Assembly (NCBI GenBank): GCA_020725425.1 | Contig: DYFA01000016.1 | Span: forward strand, 62,001 to 126,000 | DNA: 64,000 bases | Direction: 5' to 3' | Source of the DNA: Aneurinibacillus sp. | Lineage (GTDB): Bacteria; Bacillota; UBA5301; DYFA01 | In this document: one piece after another, positions 13,007 to 44,343 of the stretch | Position numbering within the stretch: position 1 is the first letter of the stretch | How the letters are laid out: each line of letters begins with the position of its first letter | Position numbers and translations under genes: made by a program | Notes under the pieces: model-generated | What the model was told of the DNA's origin: nothing | Database searches by the model: none | The model's input: only the letters and a program-made list of their open reading frames with translations

Positions 13007-13804
13007 ATGACTGGGACCTTGCTAGCGAAGACGCGCAACATCAACCGCCTGATTCAGAGCACCGCTGGAGAAGCGGTCGATTTCGGAGAGATGGCGCAGG
13101 TCCTGCGCGATGTGATCGGAGCCAACATATACGTCGTGGACCGGAAGGGCAAGCTCTTGGGCCATGCCCTGATGACGGAGTTCCAATGCGAGGTCATCGA
13201 GCGCGATATCCTGACCCGCGGCTATTTCCCCCAATCTTATAACGACCGCCTCTTGCGGGTGAATCATACCTCCCCCAACCTGCTGCCCGAGAAGGGCCGG
13301 TGCGTGCTCGACCGCGACCTGGAGTGCAACTGCCTCGACAAGATCACCACGATCGTCCCGGTCAACGGCGGGGGCGAGCGTCTCGGGACTTTGGTCTTGG
13401 CCCGGTTCAAGCAGGCCTTCACTGACGAGGACCTGCTTCTAGCCGAGTACGGGGCAACCGTGGTGGGGATGGAGATGCTGCGCCTCAAGTCGCAGCAGAT
13501 CGAGGAAGAGGCGCGCAAGAAGGCGGCGGTGCAGATCGCCCTGGCGACCCTGTCCTTTTCGGAGCTCGAGGTGGTGACCCACATCTTTGCGGAGCTCGGC
13601 GGACGGGAAGGCCTGCTCGTCGCCAGCAAGGTGGCGGATCGCGTGGGGATAACCCGTTCGGTGATCGTCAACGCCCTGCGCAAGTTTGAGAGCGCCGGCG
13701 TGATTGAGTCACGGTCCCTCGGGATGAAGGGGACGTTCATCCGGGTCCTCAACGAGTACCTGCTGGATGAGTTGAAATCCCTCGAGGAGCGGCGGAGCTT
13801 ATAG
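13007..13804 (+). CDS. codY: GTP- and branched-chain-amino-acid-sensing global regulator CodY
   Basis: 265 residues, near the B. subtilis length. CodY represses stationary-phase genes, often including motility genes, when GTP and Ile/Leu/Val are plentiful. The N-terminal GAF ligand domain ([14 protein letters not shown] through about residue 155) is followed by a linker helix and a winged HTH with [20 protein letters not shown] (about residues 207-226). ATG 13007 follows GGAGGAG. It is transcribed alone, closed by a terminator immediately downstream, and stands directly before the flagellar leader. Confidence 0.96.
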
Positions 13805-13815
13805 GCCCAACCTCC

Positions 13816-13845
13816 ACCCGGCAGTCAGTCGCCGGGTTTTCTTTT
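13816..13845 (+). terminator. Intrinsic terminator after codY
   Basis: A 7-bp stem ACCCGGC (13816-13822) with GCCGGGT (13831-13837) closes an 8-base loop AGTCAGTC and is followed by TTTTCTTTT. It separates codY from the flagellar leader. Confidence 0.85.
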
Positions 13846-13960
13846 CATTGGTGAAAATCTCATCTCTTTTTCACGAAATGTGGGAGACACCGGCAGGAAC
13901 TTCCTTTTGGCTGAAGAAAATAAAACTCCAGGTCTGGAAAGGCCAGGAAAGACAAGACTC

Positions 13961-14058
13961 ACCGCGGCAGGGAAAGGGCAAATCTACCAAAAGGTAGAGA
14001 CGCAAAGCTACGGGCCTAAGGCCTCACGGAGGGGCTATGGCGGCCGGGTTGCCACGGT
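13961..14058 (+). promoter_or_regulatory. Cyclic di-GMP-I (GEMM-I) riboswitch aptamer
   Basis: The order and sequence of conserved blocks match GEMM-I: AGGGCAAA (13975-13982), a 6-bp hairpin TCTACC-AAAA-GGTAGA (13983-13998), GACGCAAAGC (13999-14008), a second stem with CCTAAG (14015-14020) opposite TATGG (14036-14040), then GGCCGGGTTGCC. CCTAAG/TATGG is the classic 11-nt tetraloop receptor. Closing helix P1 pairs ACCGCGGCA (13961-13969) with TGCCACGGT (14050-14058), eight of nine pairs. c-di-GMP usually controls the switch between motility and sessile growth, so its place before flgB makes sense. The cGAMP-binding GEMM-Ib variant cannot be excluded from sequence alone. Confidence 0.9.
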
Positions 14059-14066
14059 TGCGCGAA

Positions 14067-14093
14067 AGTGGGTTGAACGGATTCAAGTCCACT
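14067..14093 (+). promoter_or_regulatory. Candidate antiterminator hairpin of the c-di-GMP riboswitch
   Basis: AGTGGG-TTGAA (14067-14077) pairs with TTCAA-g-TCCACT (14082-14093) around loop CGGA, 11 pairs with one bulge and one G-T wobble. It shares bases 14079-14090 with the 5' arm of the terminator, so the two hairpins are mutually exclusive. Confidence 0.6.
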
Positions 14094-14120
14094 GGGGGCC
14101 GGGCTTGAATCCTTAATTTT
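14079..14120 (+). terminator. Riboswitch-controlled terminator before the flagellar operon
   Basis: A 12-bp stem, GGATTCAAGTCC (14079-14090) with GGGCTTGAATCC (14101-14112), one wobble, 10-base loop, followed by TTAATTTT. It lies 20 bases after the aptamer and 56 bases before flgB, as expected for a transcription-attenuating expression platform. Confidence 0.8.
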
Positions 14121-14176
14121 GTGCCGCGGCTGCCGAAGATGACGACGAGAGTCCGGACACAAAGGGGGTGAGCGAG

Positions 14177-14599
14177 GTGGCTGGCGGGGTGCTGGGGGTG
14201 CAGGCGGACCTGGCCCTCGAGCGGGCGCTCGACGGGTCGGTCCTGCGCCACCAGGCGATTGCGGAAAACCTGGCCAACGTGGATACGCCTCGCTACAAGC
14301 GGCTGGAGGTGGAGTTTGCCGCAGCGCTCAAGGCGGCGCTGGCCAAGCAGGGTACCGGGGTGCCGTTGACCCGGACTGACCCGCGCCACCTCCCGGGCGG
14401 ACAAGCCCCGCTGGCAGAGGCGCAGCCTTCCGTCTGGCGCGTGCTGGAGACCACAGGGCGAGCCGACCGGAACAACGTGGACCTCGATGCGGAAATGGTC
14501 AAGCTGGCCGAGAACACGCTCCTGTACAACTCGCTGACCCAGGTGCTCGGGCGGCGCCTGGCGATGCAGCGGTTTGTGATCAACGAAGGGAGGCGGTAA
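14177..14599 (+). CDS. flgB: Flagellar basal-body proximal rod protein FlgB
   Basis: 140 residues. FlgB is a proximal rod subunit exported by the flagellar type III system. The N-terminal rod motif is ALDGSVLRHQAIAENLANVDTPRYKR, and the C-terminal helix ends in NTLLYNSLTQVLGRRLAMQRFVI. GTG 14177 is preferred over GTG 14168 because AAAGGGGGTGA (14160-14170) is an ideal SD for 14177 and overlaps 14168. It is the first gene of the flagellar supercluster, under the riboswitch. Confidence 0.95.
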   Translation: MAGGVLGVQADLALERALDGSVLRHQAIAENLANVDTPRYKRLEVEFAAALKAALAKQGTGVPLTRTDPRHLPGGQAPLAEAQPSVWRVLETTGRADRNNVDLDAEMVKLAENTLLYNSLTQVLGRRLAMQRFVINEGRR

Positions 14600-20703: not shown

Positions 20704-21249
20704 GTGCGGTGGGTCGCAATCGGGTTGGTAGCTCTGGTGATCGCCGGCGTGATGGCGGTGGCGATATTGGACCACTTCGGGTTCCTTGACACCAGCAGCC
20801 TGGTGATGAGCGGGTTGAAGCGGATCAAGGTGTTTGCGCCGTACGTTCGCACGTATGAGCTGGGGTTGAGCAGAAGCCAGGCGCTGGCCCGGGAACGCAC
20901 GAAGCTCGAGGATGCCCGGCAAGCCCTGGAGCTGCGGGCCAAGGAGATCGCCAAAGAGGCCGCCGATCTGGAGGAGCGCCGGCGGAGAAGCCAGGAGGAG
21001 TTGGCGCAGCTCGAAGCCAGGCGTGACGAGCTGCTCAAGGCAGTAAAAGGAGCGGAGCAGCTGGACCGGGTGGCCAGGCTGTGCGGAGCGATGCCGACTG
21101 CGGGGGCCGTGCGGCTCCTGGGAGAGCTGGAGGACGCCGCCATCGCTCAGGTCCTGGCGAGGCTTCCGGACAAACAGGCCGGAGCGATCCTGAACGGCTT
21201 CGAGGCGAAGCGGGCGGCGCGGGTCCTCGCCTTGATGGTGCGGCCGTAG
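20704..21249 (+). CDS. YlxF/MotE-like membrane-anchored coiled-coil protein
   Basis: 181 residues. One N-terminal membrane helix (about residues 4-22, VAIGLVALVIAGVMAVAIL) is followed by a coiled coil (about residues 65-110) and a C-terminal MgtE-N-like domain (GAMPTAGAVRLLGELEDAAIAQVLARLPDKQAGAIL). This architecture matches YlxF of B. subtilis and MotE of alphaproteobacteria, proteins placed between fliJ and fliK. MotE helps stator function in rhizobia; the role in Bacillota is unclear. GTG 20704 follows GGGAGGCG. Confidence 0.8.
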   Translation: MRWVAIGLVALVIAGVMAVAILDHFGFLDTSSLVMSGLKRIKVFAPYVRTYELGLSRSQALARERTKLEDARQALELRAKEIAKEAADLEERRRRSQEELAQLEARRDELLKAVKGAEQLDRVARLCGAMPTAGAVRLLGELEDAAIAQVLARLPDKQAGAILNGFEAKRAARVLALMVRP

Positions 21250-21319: not shown

Positions 21320-23116
21320 GTGATGGGATGCGAGGGTGCCCCCGACGCGGCTCGGGGCCTATTCGGCCTGTTGACGGTCGGGCGGGCGCTGGGAGAGGGC
21401 ACTGGAACACCCAAGGCCCAGTCCACCGAGGGGTCTAACCTGTTTGCCGACCTGTTGGCGGCGGCCTGCGCCGCCTTGGGGGGCCCAGGGCTGACGGAGA
21501 CTGGGGCGGCGGACGCTCCGGCACCGGCCGAGGGCGAGGGAACGGTGAAACCGGCGGGGGACGAAACCGCCGCAGCACCGGCGGCTGGTGGAGAAAGGCT
21601 GGAGCCGACGGTTGCGGGTGGAGCCGCGACCGACCAGGAAGGGCCGGCCCCGGGCGCGGGGGCCCCGAGCGCGGCCGAGGGATCGGCGGATGGTCCGACG
21701 GCGGCTGTGTCCACCCGGAGCGAGGCCTGGCTGTCCCCGGCGGCAGCGGGCGACCCGGCCAATGTCACGGCGCGCGTCGAGGAGTCGGTGGCTGAACCCG
21801 CGGTGCCCCGACCGGTGACGGCCGCGCCAGAGAAGCAGCAAGCTTCTCACACCGGGCAGGCGGAGCAATGCCTGCAGATCTGCCCTGTCGAGCGCTTCCT
21901 GGAGGAAGGCGCCGGGGCGAGGGTGGCAGACGGACAGCCTCTGCAGACCGCGGGGCAGTCGGAGAAGGCCCCCACCCAAGGCGGTCCGGATGAACAGGGA
22001 CAAGCCAGCGGAGCGCTGCCAGGCGAGGGAGCCCGGCTGGTCGAAAGCCGCTCGGGTACGGTGTGGGTGGCCGGAGTGAAGACCGCGCCCCCCTCCCCGG
22101 AACGATTCACGCCGCCCGCGGAGGGCTCCTCCGGGATGCCGGGGGAGACCGCCCGAGAGAAGGGCGAGCCCAGGCCGGCTGAAAGCGGGGCTTCACCGGC
22201 CGACGACGGGGCAGATCGCCGGCTCAGCGCCCCGCCTAGCGAGAGTCGCGCCGCCGCGGCGAACCCCGGGAAGCCGGCGGGAGTCGATGCTCACCGACCG
22301 CCGGAGGGTGACCAGCGGACGGAACGGGTGCCGGTAAGCACCGCGCCAGAGGGCTCCAGGACGGCCAGCGAGGAACAGCGCCCGGCAAAGCCGACGGTAG
22401 CGGTCGAGCACCCTGGACAAGGAAGGCCTGCGAAGGTCGAAGGCGGCGCCACCCGGGAGGCGGCCGGCGTGGAAGCCAGGCCGGCTTCGGCAGGGACGAG
22501 GGCCGCACCGCCACAGGAAGAACCGGCCAGCGCCGATCGGCCGGGCATGCGTCCGAAGCAGACGGCCGGGCCGGCCATAGCAGACTGGAACGAGCAAGGC
22601 TGGCGGACCGAGAAGAGTGCGTCACCCGGCTCCGCCAAAGCCGAGCCGCTCCGCCCCTACAGCCGGGCAGAGCTGCGGGACCTTCCCCAGTTCGTCCGGC
22701 GGGCGGAACTAGTGGCCCGCAGCGGAGCGCCGACCGAGATGCGGGTACAGCTTGTACCGGAGAGCCTGGGCCGGCTGTCGGTGCGGGTCAGCGTGGCTGA
22801 GGGCGGGGTGACGGCCCGGCTGGTGGTGGAGAATCCGGAGGTCAAGGCGCTGGTGGAGGAGCGACTTCCCGAACTAGAGCGGGCCTTACGGGACCAGGGA
22901 TTCCGGCTTGCCGGCCTGAGCGTGGGCTGCGAGGACGCTGGAGCCGGCCAGGGAGGCTTTCTCCGGGAGGAAGTCCGGGAACCGCTCGGGTGGGGCCTGT
23001 CCCGCAGCGCCGCCCGGCACCAGTACGAGGAGACCCCGGCCGTCCCCGTGGAGCCGGCGATCCCGGCGTCGCACCTGTGGGCGGGGAGCGGGGGACTCCT
23101 GGACGCGCTGATGTAA
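21320..23116 (+). CDS. fliK: Flagellar hook-length control protein FliK
   Basis: 598 residues. FliK measures hook length and triggers the export substrate switch through FlhB. The first roughly 440 residues are low-complexity (Ala, Gly, Glu, Pro) with little conservation, as is usual; the C-terminal Flg_hook domain (about residues 450-545) contains RVQLVPESLGRLSVRV and LVEERLPELERALRDQGF. GTG 21320 and ATG 21323 both fit the perfect AAAGGAGGTGA SD at 21303-21313. It precedes the hook cap gene flgD, as expected. Confidence 0.9.
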   Translation: MMGCEGAPDAARGLFGLLTVGRALGEGTGTPKAQSTEGSNLFADLLAAACAALGGPGLTETGAADAPAPAEGEGTVKPAGDETAAAPAAGGERLEPTVAGGAATDQEGPAPGAGAPSAAEGSADGPTAAVSTRSEAWLSPAAAGDPANVTARVEESVAEPAVPRPVTAAPEKQQASHTGQAEQCLQICPVERFLEEGAGARVADGQPLQTAGQSEKAPTQGGPDEQGQASGALPGEGARLVESRSGTVWVAGVKTAPPSPERFTPPAEGSSGMPGETAREKGEPRPAESGASPADDGADRRLSAPPSESRAAAANPGKPAGVDAHRPPEGDQRTERVPVSTAPEGSRTASEEQRPAKPTVAVEHPGQGRPAKVEGGATREAAGVEARPASAGTRAAPPQEEPASADRPGMRPKQTAGPAIADWNEQGWRTEKSASPGSAKAEPLRPYSRAELRDLPQFVRRAELVARSGAPTEMRVQLVPESLGRLSVRVSVAEGGVTARLVVENPEVKALVEERLPELERALRDQGFRLAGLSVGCEDAGAGQGGFLREEVREPLGWGLSRSAARHQYEETPAVPVEPAIPASHLWAGSGGLLDALM

Positions 23117-39577: not shown

Positions 39578-40387
39578 ATGGCCCGACAGGGCGCAACGGT
39601 TCGCACAAGCGACATCGACGGAGCCTGGAAGGCGTTCAAGCGCACGGGTGACCGTGCGGCGCGGGAAACCCTGATTCTTCACTACGCGCCGCTCGTGAAG
39701 TACGTGGCCGGACGGTTGGCAGTGGCTCTGCCGGCCACCGTAGAGTTCGACGACCTGATCAGCTGCGGGACGTTCGGGCTGATCGACGCGGTCGAGAAGT
39801 TCGAGCCGGCTCGCGGGGTGAAGTTCGAGACGTACGCCTTGGCCCGGATCCGCGGGGCAATCATCGACGGGCTCCGCCTGGCGGACTGGGTGCCGCGCTC
39901 CCTGCGCCAAAAGGCCCGCGAGTTTGAGACGGCAGCGCAACGCCTGGAAAGCCGCCTAGGGCGGGCGGCGACCGACGCGGAGCTGGCGGCGGCGCTGGGG
40001 CTTTCGCTTGACGAGTATCACAGTCTCGTCTCCGAGTTGGCCTGCACCACCCTGAGCTCGCTCGATGAGGTCTGGCGCGGGGACGAGGAGGGCAACGAAG
40101 GGGTGCGGCTGGTGGATGGCCTGGCGGACGAGGCGGCGGCCGACCCGCTGACCAGCGCGGAGTTCACTGAGTTGAAGCGGGCCCTGGGCGAGGCGATCGA
40201 CCAGCTTCCTGAGCGGGAACGCCTGGTCATTGCATTGTACTACCGGGAAGGTCTGACGCTCAAGGAGATCGGTCGGGTCCTGGACGTCACAGAGGCGCGG
40301 GTGTCCCAGATCCACACGAAGGCGATTCTCCGCCTGCGCGGGAAGCTGGCCCGGTGGCGGGAGGATCGGCCGGTGCGAGCGGGGTGA
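39578..40387 (+). CDS. sigD: Flagellar sigma factor SigD/FliA (sigma-28)
   Basis: 269 residues. It directs transcription of late flagellar and chemotaxis genes. Region 2 contains LVKYVAGRLAVALPATVEFDDLISCGTFGLIDA and KFETYALARIRGAIIDGLR with DWVPRSLRQKA, the sigma-28 signature; region 4 contains LPERERLVIALYYREGLTLKEIGRVLDVTEARVSQIHTKAI. No flgM anti-sigma gene is adjacent. ATG 39578 follows CGAAGGGG. Confidence 0.96.
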   Translation: MARQGATVRTSDIDGAWKAFKRTGDRAARETLILHYAPLVKYVAGRLAVALPATVEFDDLISCGTFGLIDAVEKFEPARGVKFETYALARIRGAIIDGLRLADWVPRSLRQKAREFETAAQRLESRLGRAATDAELAAALGLSLDEYHSLVSELACTTLSSLDEVWRGDEEGNEGVRLVDGLADEAAADPLTSAEFTELKRALGEAIDQLPERERLVIALYYREGLTLKEIGRVLDVTEARVSQIHTKAILRLRGKLARWREDRPVRAG

Positions 40388-42940: not shown

Positions 42941-43426
42941 ATGGTCATCGATCGCCAGATGCTGTTGGGGATAGGGGTGGGGCTGATGCTGGCCGCCACC
43001 CTTCTTGCGGCCGGCGGCGGGCGGCAGAAACCCCCAAGCGACGTGGAGGTCATCCAGCGGGCCAAGGCCCTGGGCATGACCTTCCCCGGGGAGCAGCGGC
43101 TCACTCTCGAGGGCGCTCCGGAGAAGAACCCCGATGCCGGAGCCACCCTGCCTGACGGCGTTCCGGGCGAAACGACCCAGGCGCCGCCTCCTCCGGGCAA
43201 AAAGGCCTCCACAGTCACCGTGGTCGTCCCGCCAGGGGCGACCGCCGGCGAGGTGGCCCGGCTGCTGCGAGCCAAGTCGTTGATCGCCGACGAGGACGAG
43301 TTTCTGCGGCTCGCGGCGGGAAGGCAGGCGGAGGCGCACTTCCTGCCCGGCACCTATCGGTTCCCCAGCAACATCACGGTCAGGGAGTTGATCACGTCCC
43401 TTTTGACCGGCCCTCAGGCCGAATGA
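42941..43426 (+). CDS. Membrane-anchored MltG/YceG N-terminal-domain protein without catalytic domain
   Basis: 161 residues. An N-terminal membrane helix (LLGIGVGLMLAATLLAA) is followed by a Pro-rich linker and a domain at about residues 90-155 (VTVVVPPGATAGEVARLLRAKSLI, FLPGTYRFPSNITVRELITSLL) that matches the LysM-like N-terminal part of endolytic transglycosylase MltG. The catalytic domain is absent and the gene ends with a clean stop. GTG/ATG choice: ATG 42941 is supported by the helix. It is the last gene of the flagellar cluster; a peptidoglycan-related role is inference. Confidence 0.7.
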   Translation: MVIDRQMLLGIGVGLMLAATLLAAGGGRQKPPSDVEVIQRAKALGMTFPGEQRLTLEGAPEKNPDAGATLPDGVPGETTQAPPPPGKKASTVTVVVPPGATAGEVARLLRAKSLIADEDEFLRLAAGRQAEAHFLPGTYRFPSNITVRELITSLLTGPQAE

Positions 43427-43443: not shown

Positions 43444-43472
43444 TTGCCACTGGTTTTAGGGTATGGTACACT
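43444..43472 (+). promoter_or_regulatory. Sigma-A promoter for rpsB-tsf
   Basis: TTGCCA (43444-43449; five of six) and TACACT (43467-43472; four of six) have the ideal 17-base spacing and an extended -10 TG at 43464-43465. It lies in the gap after the flagellar cluster and implies a 5' leader of about 110 bases before rpsB. Confidence 0.7.
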
Positions 43473-43590: not shown

Positions 43591-44343
43591 ATGGCCGTAA
43601 TCTCCATGAAACAGCTCCTGGAAGCAGGGGTGCACTTCGGTCACCAGACTCGCCGCTGGAATCCCAAAATGAAGGAGTATATCTTCACCGAGCGGAACGG
43701 GATCTACATCATCGACCTGCAGAAGACGGTCCGCAAGGTGGAGGAGGCGTACAACTTCATCCGGTCGGTGGCTGCGGGCGGCGGGCGCATCCTCTTCGTC
43801 GGGACCAAGAAGCAGGCCCAGGAGGCCGTGCGGGAAGAGGCCACCCGCTGCGGCCAGTTCTACGTGAACGTGCGGTGGTTGGGCGGGACGCTGACCAACT
43901 TCTCCACGCTCAAGTCGCGGATCGCCCGGATGCGTGAGCTTGAGCGGATGGAGGAGACGGGTGCCTTCGCCGCTCTGCCGAAGAAGGAAGTGCTCGAGCT
44001 TCGCAAGGAGTACGAGCGGCTGGTGCGGTTCCTCGGCGGCATCAAGGACATGTCCAAGCTCCCGGACGCTCTCTTCGTCATCGACCCGCGCAAGGAGCGG
44101 ATCGCCGTCTCCGAGGCGCGGAAGTTGCGCATTCCCATCGTCGGTCTGGTGGATACTAACTGCGATCCCGACGAGGTCGACTACGTCATCCCAGGGAACG
44201 ACGACGCCATCCGGGCAGTGAAGCTCCTGACCGCCAAGATGGCCGACGCCGTCCTGGAAGGGCGGGAAGGCCGGGAAGGGGCTCCGGCCGAGCCCGAGCC
44301 GGAAGTGGACGAAGAAGAGATCGAGGTGGGGAGGGAAGCGTAG
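43591..44343 (+). CDS. rpsB: 30S ribosomal protein S2
   Basis: 250 residues, typical for Bacillota uS2. Conserved blocks: [32 protein letters not shown], and [28 protein letters not shown]. The acidic tail ([12 protein letters not shown]) is common. ATG 43591 follows a strong AGAGGAGGTGACC. It is paired with tsf as in most bacteria. Confidence 0.97.

Follow-up and report, generated by a model that had tools for sequence, protein, structure and literature searches.

A predicted c-di-GMP-I OFF riboswitch and a candidate sigma-H-type promoter ahead of a 29 kb flagellar gene cluster

The window, i.e., the whole 64 kb stretch of DNA analyzed here, comes from a genome of 2.38 Mb, 96.9% complete, which is the sole member of its family and one of seven in its class within the collection used. 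On the forward strand it carries codY at 13007-13804 (Pfam CodY, 212 bits; HTH_CodY, 105 bits), followed at 13816-13837 by the codY intrinsic terminator, a 7-pair stem and then TTTCTTTTC. Next comes flgB at 14177-14599 (TIGR01396, 99.4 bits), with a GTG start at 14177 and the Shine-Dalgarno sequence AAAGGGGG at 14161-14168. A codY-type C-terminus was found before flgB in six class-mates, and the synteny was kept in the class-mates examined. NCBIfam and Pfam scans of the rest of the cluster (14604-43426, same strand) gave the order flgB, flgC, fliE, fliF, fliG, fliH, fliI, fliJ, a gene with weak similarity to FlbB, a gene at the fliK position, flgD, flg_new, flgE, flbD, motA, motB, fliL, fliM, fliY, cheY, fliO, fliP, fliQ, fliR, flhB, flhA, flhF, a MinD-like gene at the place of flhG, cheC, cheD, a sigma-70-family gene at 39578-40387 called fliA by its place, a FapA-domain gene, DUF6115, and a YceG-like gene that ends at 43426; the names fliK, flhG, and fliA rest partly on position. 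The 598-aa protein at the fliK position (21320-23113) had no NCBIfam match, and the 181-aa protein encoded at 20704-21246 gave only weak FlbB- and MgtE_N-like matches. Terminator-like sites within the cluster were about as numerous as in shuffles, and a promoter-like site at 43444, with rpsB at 43591, lies after its end. The first-pass annotation had described an operon of roughly 29 kb, and this agrees with the uninterrupted flagellar cluster found at 14177-43426, fliA included, which we infer to be transcribed as a single mRNA. Since the flagellar sigma factor is inside the operon, any gating would reach the late genes indirectly, which is also the case in C. difficile.

The leader of flgB contains an aptamer of the c-di-GMP-I (GEMM-I) class at 13967-14056, on the forward strand. 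It was detected by cmscan against Rfam as a full-length match to RF01051 (model positions 1-87 of 87), with 78.5 bits and an E-value of 9.6e-14, the gathering score of this family being 35 bits; a local search gave the same aptamer an E-value of 7.8e-16. This was the sole RNA family that reached the Rfam gathering score in the window, with one match, and the covariance search thus bore out the earlier proposal of a c-di-GMP-I riboswitch. The aptamer ends 120 nt before flgB, and the functional riboswitch unit spans about 13956 to 14120. The bounds drawn previously, 13961-14058, cover the aptamer but only part of P1; this helix is present, as had been noticed, but it extends further, with a 5' arm at 13956-13968 (+), here called the P strand, that makes 13 pairs, i.e., 13956-13962 with 14068-14074 and 13963-13968 with 14057-14062. 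The canonical ligand-contact positions are G 13977, CAAAGC at 14003-14008, and CC at 14052-14053. We take G 13977 to be G20 in the Vc2 numbering, the discriminator position being assigned from the Vc2 structure; this position is an A in c-GAMP variants. Because a G is found there in the window, c-di-GMP is favoured over c-GAMP as the predicted ligand, and the discriminator G was present in 80 of the 81 sequences when relatives were aligned to a covariance model built here. In addition, both halves of the 11-nt tetraloop receptor, CCUAAG and UAUGG, are intact, in agreement with the first-pass annotation, but the tetraloop itself, at 13989-13992, is AAAA and not GAAA. Hence, the aptamer is like GEMM-I RNAs in general in its conserved blocks, discriminator G, and receptor, and unlike them in this loop. 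The aligned sequences have GAAA in 68/81 cases and AAAA in two, the other being L149, and since 13 of the 81 deviate, the GAAA loop is non-essential for RF01051 membership. The AAAA loop may dock more weakly into the receptor and lower the affinity for the ligand.

Between the aptamer and flgB, we found an intrinsic terminator at 14079-14112 (+), with a 12-pair stem (14079-14090 with 14101-14112) and a loop of 10 nt, followed by UUAAUUUU at 14113-14120. Its predicted stability was -17.5 to -18.7 kcal/mol, with a z of -3.5 and none of 200 shuffles equally stable, and a homologue is found in the class-mate L009. A generic terminator scan, which takes loops of 3-8 nt, did not report this hairpin with its loop of 10 nt. 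Its 5' arm is predicted to be shared with an antiterminator hairpin, GUGGGUUGAA/UUCAAGUCCAC, at 14068-14092 (+; -7.5 kcal/mol), where GUGGGUUGAA at 14068-14077 pairs with the terminator 5' arm and doubles as the 3' strand of P1. Among 3000 dinucleotide shuffles, three had an arm common to the terminator and an upstream hairpin, and 17 had a 12-bp hairpin at the place of the terminator. The terminator arm does not belong to a dispersed repeat, as GGATTCAAGTCC occurs once in the genome. A further hairpin at 14040-14061 (+), formed by seven pairs between 14040-14046 and 14055-14061 (-10.9 kcal/mol), would break P3 and the upper part of P1; at transcript end 14108, its predicted probability without ligand was 0.95 for an RNA that starts at 13955, and 0.54-0.60 for starts at 13924-13930. 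Thus, as in switches of the Cd1 type, a terminator is found between aptamer and flgB, and the antiterminator strand is, by prediction, the 3' strand of P1. A terminator so placed makes mRNA elongation the likely step of control.

The sign of the switch, on which the first-pass annotation was silent, was addressed by folding successive transcript lengths from 13955, with secondary-structure energies only. At 14108, where the terminator is still incomplete, the alternative hairpin together with the antiterminator gave -61.1 kcal/mol, against -56.5 for the aptamer alone and -54.2 for the aptamer with full P1; the apo fold was thus more stable than the aptamer fold by 5-7 kcal/mol, which a ligand of nanomolar affinity could roughly offset. 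From 14112 to 14120, the terminator reached 0.99 in the equilibrium ensemble with or without the aptamer forced (start 13955), and the unforced ensemble for starts 13924-13930 showed the same dominance. Since the terminator wins at equilibrium even without ligand, the read-through of the apo RNA must be kinetic, a behaviour described for Cd1 as well (PMC9262584). When the P strand was deleted in silico (start 13967), the ensemble at 14112-14120 changed from the terminator at 0.99 to the antiterminator at 0.88-0.90. These models predict that ligand action is directed towards termination. The class-mate G003, whose FlgB is 45% identical, has a homologous terminator, GATTCAAGTCC...GGGACTTGAAT and then a T run, with a probability of 0.00 when the aptamer 3' strand was free and 0.95 when this strand was removed. 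Another class-mate, G001 (L008), has a clear terminator, and it was uninformative on the sign because the terminator probability was 0.97 with or without the aptamer 3' strand.

A rough automatic scan of flgB-linked platforms in the phylum found 9 OFF-like and 10 ON-like cases (n = 58), with the window in neither group (change of 0.01 only). The calling spanned 64 platforms, and aptamer-containing hairpins were mispicked as terminators; the mixed outcome is partly due to this crude hairpin picker, and the sign was, therefore, not generalised from the scan. Its ON-like group, and the apo ensemble that favours the terminator at equilibrium, would fit a transcriptional ON switch, where ligand binding to the aptamer would prevent termination, so that the flagellar operon is expressed at high c-di-GMP; class I switches in other bacteria can indeed be ON, examples being Bc2 (PMC6366702) and the related c-GAMP switch of pilM (PMC9262584). 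We regard this sign as unlikely here, because the P1 3' strand is common to the antiterminator arm and not to the terminator, and G003 is clearly OFF-like. Moreover, motility and high c-di-GMP are normally opposed. A lower likelihood still was given to a degenerate, non-functional aptamer that leaves a constitutive attenuator: the AAAA loop, found in 2/81 sequences, and a terminator that reaches 0.99 at equilibrium, independently of ligand, are what such a relic should show, but the match of 78.5 bits with every ligand contact kept, the rarity in shuffles of the shared terminator arm, and the retention of aptamer and terminator in a distant class-mate speak against it. The U tract of the terminator is also predicted to pair with CACAAAG beside the flgB Shine-Dalgarno sequence, within a hairpin at 14115-14168 that might impose a further, translational layer of control on read-through transcripts. 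That this UUUUGUG/CACAAAG pairing is the actual output, with the switch acting on initiation or on both steps, is very improbable, as the hairpin has no predicted link to the aptamer and a good terminator stands between the two. In our judgment, the element is probably a class I c-di-GMP riboswitch of the transcriptional OFF type, acting on the early flagellar operon.

The distribution of this arrangement was then analyzed. All seven genomes of the class contained c-di-GMP-I aptamers and flgB, and three of them (G000, G001, and G003) had an aptamer directly before flgB. Four class-mates (L007, L010, L011, and L012) kept the codY-flgB synteny with the aptamer missing, indicating that it was gained or lost within the class. 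At the phylum level, 298 of 399 sampled genomes had at least one c-di-GMP-I aptamer, and the covariance model built here placed one upstream of flgB, on the right strand, in 62 of 135 loci, which are the best FlgB matches and not a random sample. With about four aptamers per 2.5 Mb, we estimate that placement so near flgB by chance would be below 0.2% per genome. Carriers with names include Carboxydocella thermautotrophica (L144), Dethiobacter (L173), Pelotomaculum (L164 and L186), and a Symbiobacterium MAG (L146), which has two tandem aptamers ahead of flgB; tandem aptamers were also observed at L034 and L091, and in L034 each is followed by its own terminator-like hairpin.

Upstream of the aptamer, a sigma-H-type promoter element, GCAGGAACT-N11-GAAGAAA, was found at 13893-13919 (+). 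The underlying pattern, RNAGGANNT-N11-RNNGAAW, was derived by comparison with class-mates, and this was its one match in the window, with 0.10 expected. When spacers of 11 or 12 nt were allowed, an element of this type was present upstream of flgB in 60 of the 135 best-match loci, i.e., in 38 of the 62 aptamer-bearing loci and in 22 of the other 73; control analyses of the 135 loci gave a mean of 1.35 with mononucleotide shuffles and 0 on the reverse strand, and the element was absent from 66 coding stretches downstream (0/66). It was found mostly 24-90 nt 5' of the aptamer in the loci that bear one, and positions outside the pattern were conserved, i.e., T at position 10 in 49/64 and T at position 20 in 54/64. 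The TGTCGAA form of the -10 overlaps a sequence that resembles a Spo0A box, and could be read as either such a box or a sigma-H -10. In the genome, a sigH gene was identified with TIGR02859 (371.5 bits, versus a cutoff of 294.8). A sigma-70-type promoter scan upstream of flgB gave no match, and a sigma-28 promoter in the leader was ruled out by eye for its wrong spacing. The element has the AGGA-type -35, 11-nt spacer, and RNNGAA -10 of SigH promoters from C. difficile, as listed in PMC7438776 (Table 3), and from B. subtilis, with a -10 that ends in GAAA here and in GAAT there. In the open-access literature searched, we found no report of sigma-H dependence of an flgB operon. If real, the element at 13893-13919 would be a sigma-H-dependent promoter, with transcription presumably starting near 13926. 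The earlier view that the flgB upstream region has no further obvious operator did not hold, since this element is there and recurs both in relatives that have the aptamer and in relatives that lack it.

With the aptamer, the terminator, the competing pairings, the promoter element, and the operon content established as sequence features, the OFF switch that we favour can be described as a series of events. RNA polymerase would start at about 13926, from the sigma-H-type promoter at 13893-13919, and c-di-GMP would bind the nascent aptamer, so that P1 zips fully and the 5' leader keeps 14068-14074 paired. Full P1 would block the antiterminator, and the 12-bp terminator, with its tract up to 14120 (14079-14120), would halt the polymerase 57 nt short of flgB. 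In the apo RNA, the 3' strand of the aptamer would instead refold into the 14040-14061 hairpin, GUGGGUUGAA would pair with the terminator 5' arm, and the polymerase would read into the 29 kb that include fliA. The first-pass annotation had suggested that one RNA switch may gate the whole operon; this is in line with the aptamer in the flgB leader, the terminator before the gene, and the contiguous operon, but not as regards the RNA as sole gate, and exclusive RNA control was rejected because of the promoter element and two PilZ proteins. The latter are encoded elsewhere in the genome, and c-di-GMP may thus act through routes besides the riboswitch; one of these proteins, of 214 aa, shows by eye the RRRLFR and DLSGGG motifs of YcgR-type receptors. 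The genome also encodes nine GGDEF domains, making c-di-GMP synthesis plausible, and has five c-di-GMP-I aptamers in total. The other four precede, with gene names assigned by eye, the Flp pilin of a Tad cluster (L003), a multihaem cytochrome c (L004), a small secreted protein (L005), and, about 430 nt away, a cysteine synthase (L001).

The closest known system is Cd1 (Cdi-1-3) of C. difficile, which lies in the 5' UTR of the flgB operon (23 kb). It terminates transcription in response to c-di-GMP in vitro, and in living cells the operon is repressed by c-di-GMP (PMC6366702, PMC6200980, PMC11477304). In this proven OFF switch of the same strand logic (PMC6366702, PMC9262584), aptamer and terminator compete with an antiterminator, which refolds to the terminator with time (PMC9262584). 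Both systems share the aptamer class, the place ahead of flgB, the operon content, with the flagellar sigma factor included, and a platform built around a terminator, for whose 5' arm the aptamer 3' strand competes. They differ in the platform sequence, the antiterminator being here a local hairpin with its arm within the extended P1, and in the upstream region: C. difficile flgB is transcribed from a SigA-dependent promoter with a leader of 496 nt, and an invertible flagellar switch is present (PMC7438776), whereas the window has the sigma-H-type element and a leader that would be about 250 nt long. The control of motility at mRNA elongation, put forward in the first-pass annotation, is, therefore, a mechanism already known from C. 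difficile, where Cd1 controls the flgB operon likewise, and the arrangement is common in the phylum. Newly described here are the details of a Cd1-like platform, and the sigma-H-type element is the less familiar part, since C. difficile flgB is SigA-driven.

Our observations extend a riboswitch arrangement whose function is proven in C. difficile to a class of Bacillota that has received little study, where it is common and patchy. As a tentative generalisation, to which we give somewhat less than an even chance, sigma-H could start the early flagellar operon across a broad range of spore-forming Bacillota, and in about half of them a c-di-GMP OFF riboswitch would gate it next, the SigA promoter plus riboswitch of C. 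difficile being one variant. If this is true, motility would need both entry into the transition phase and low c-di-GMP. Sigma-H is the transition-phase and sporulation sigma factor; the promoter, if real, would thus link flagellar assembly to the sigma factor that starts sporulation, and would provide a two-input gate for the decision among the motile, sessile, and spore states.
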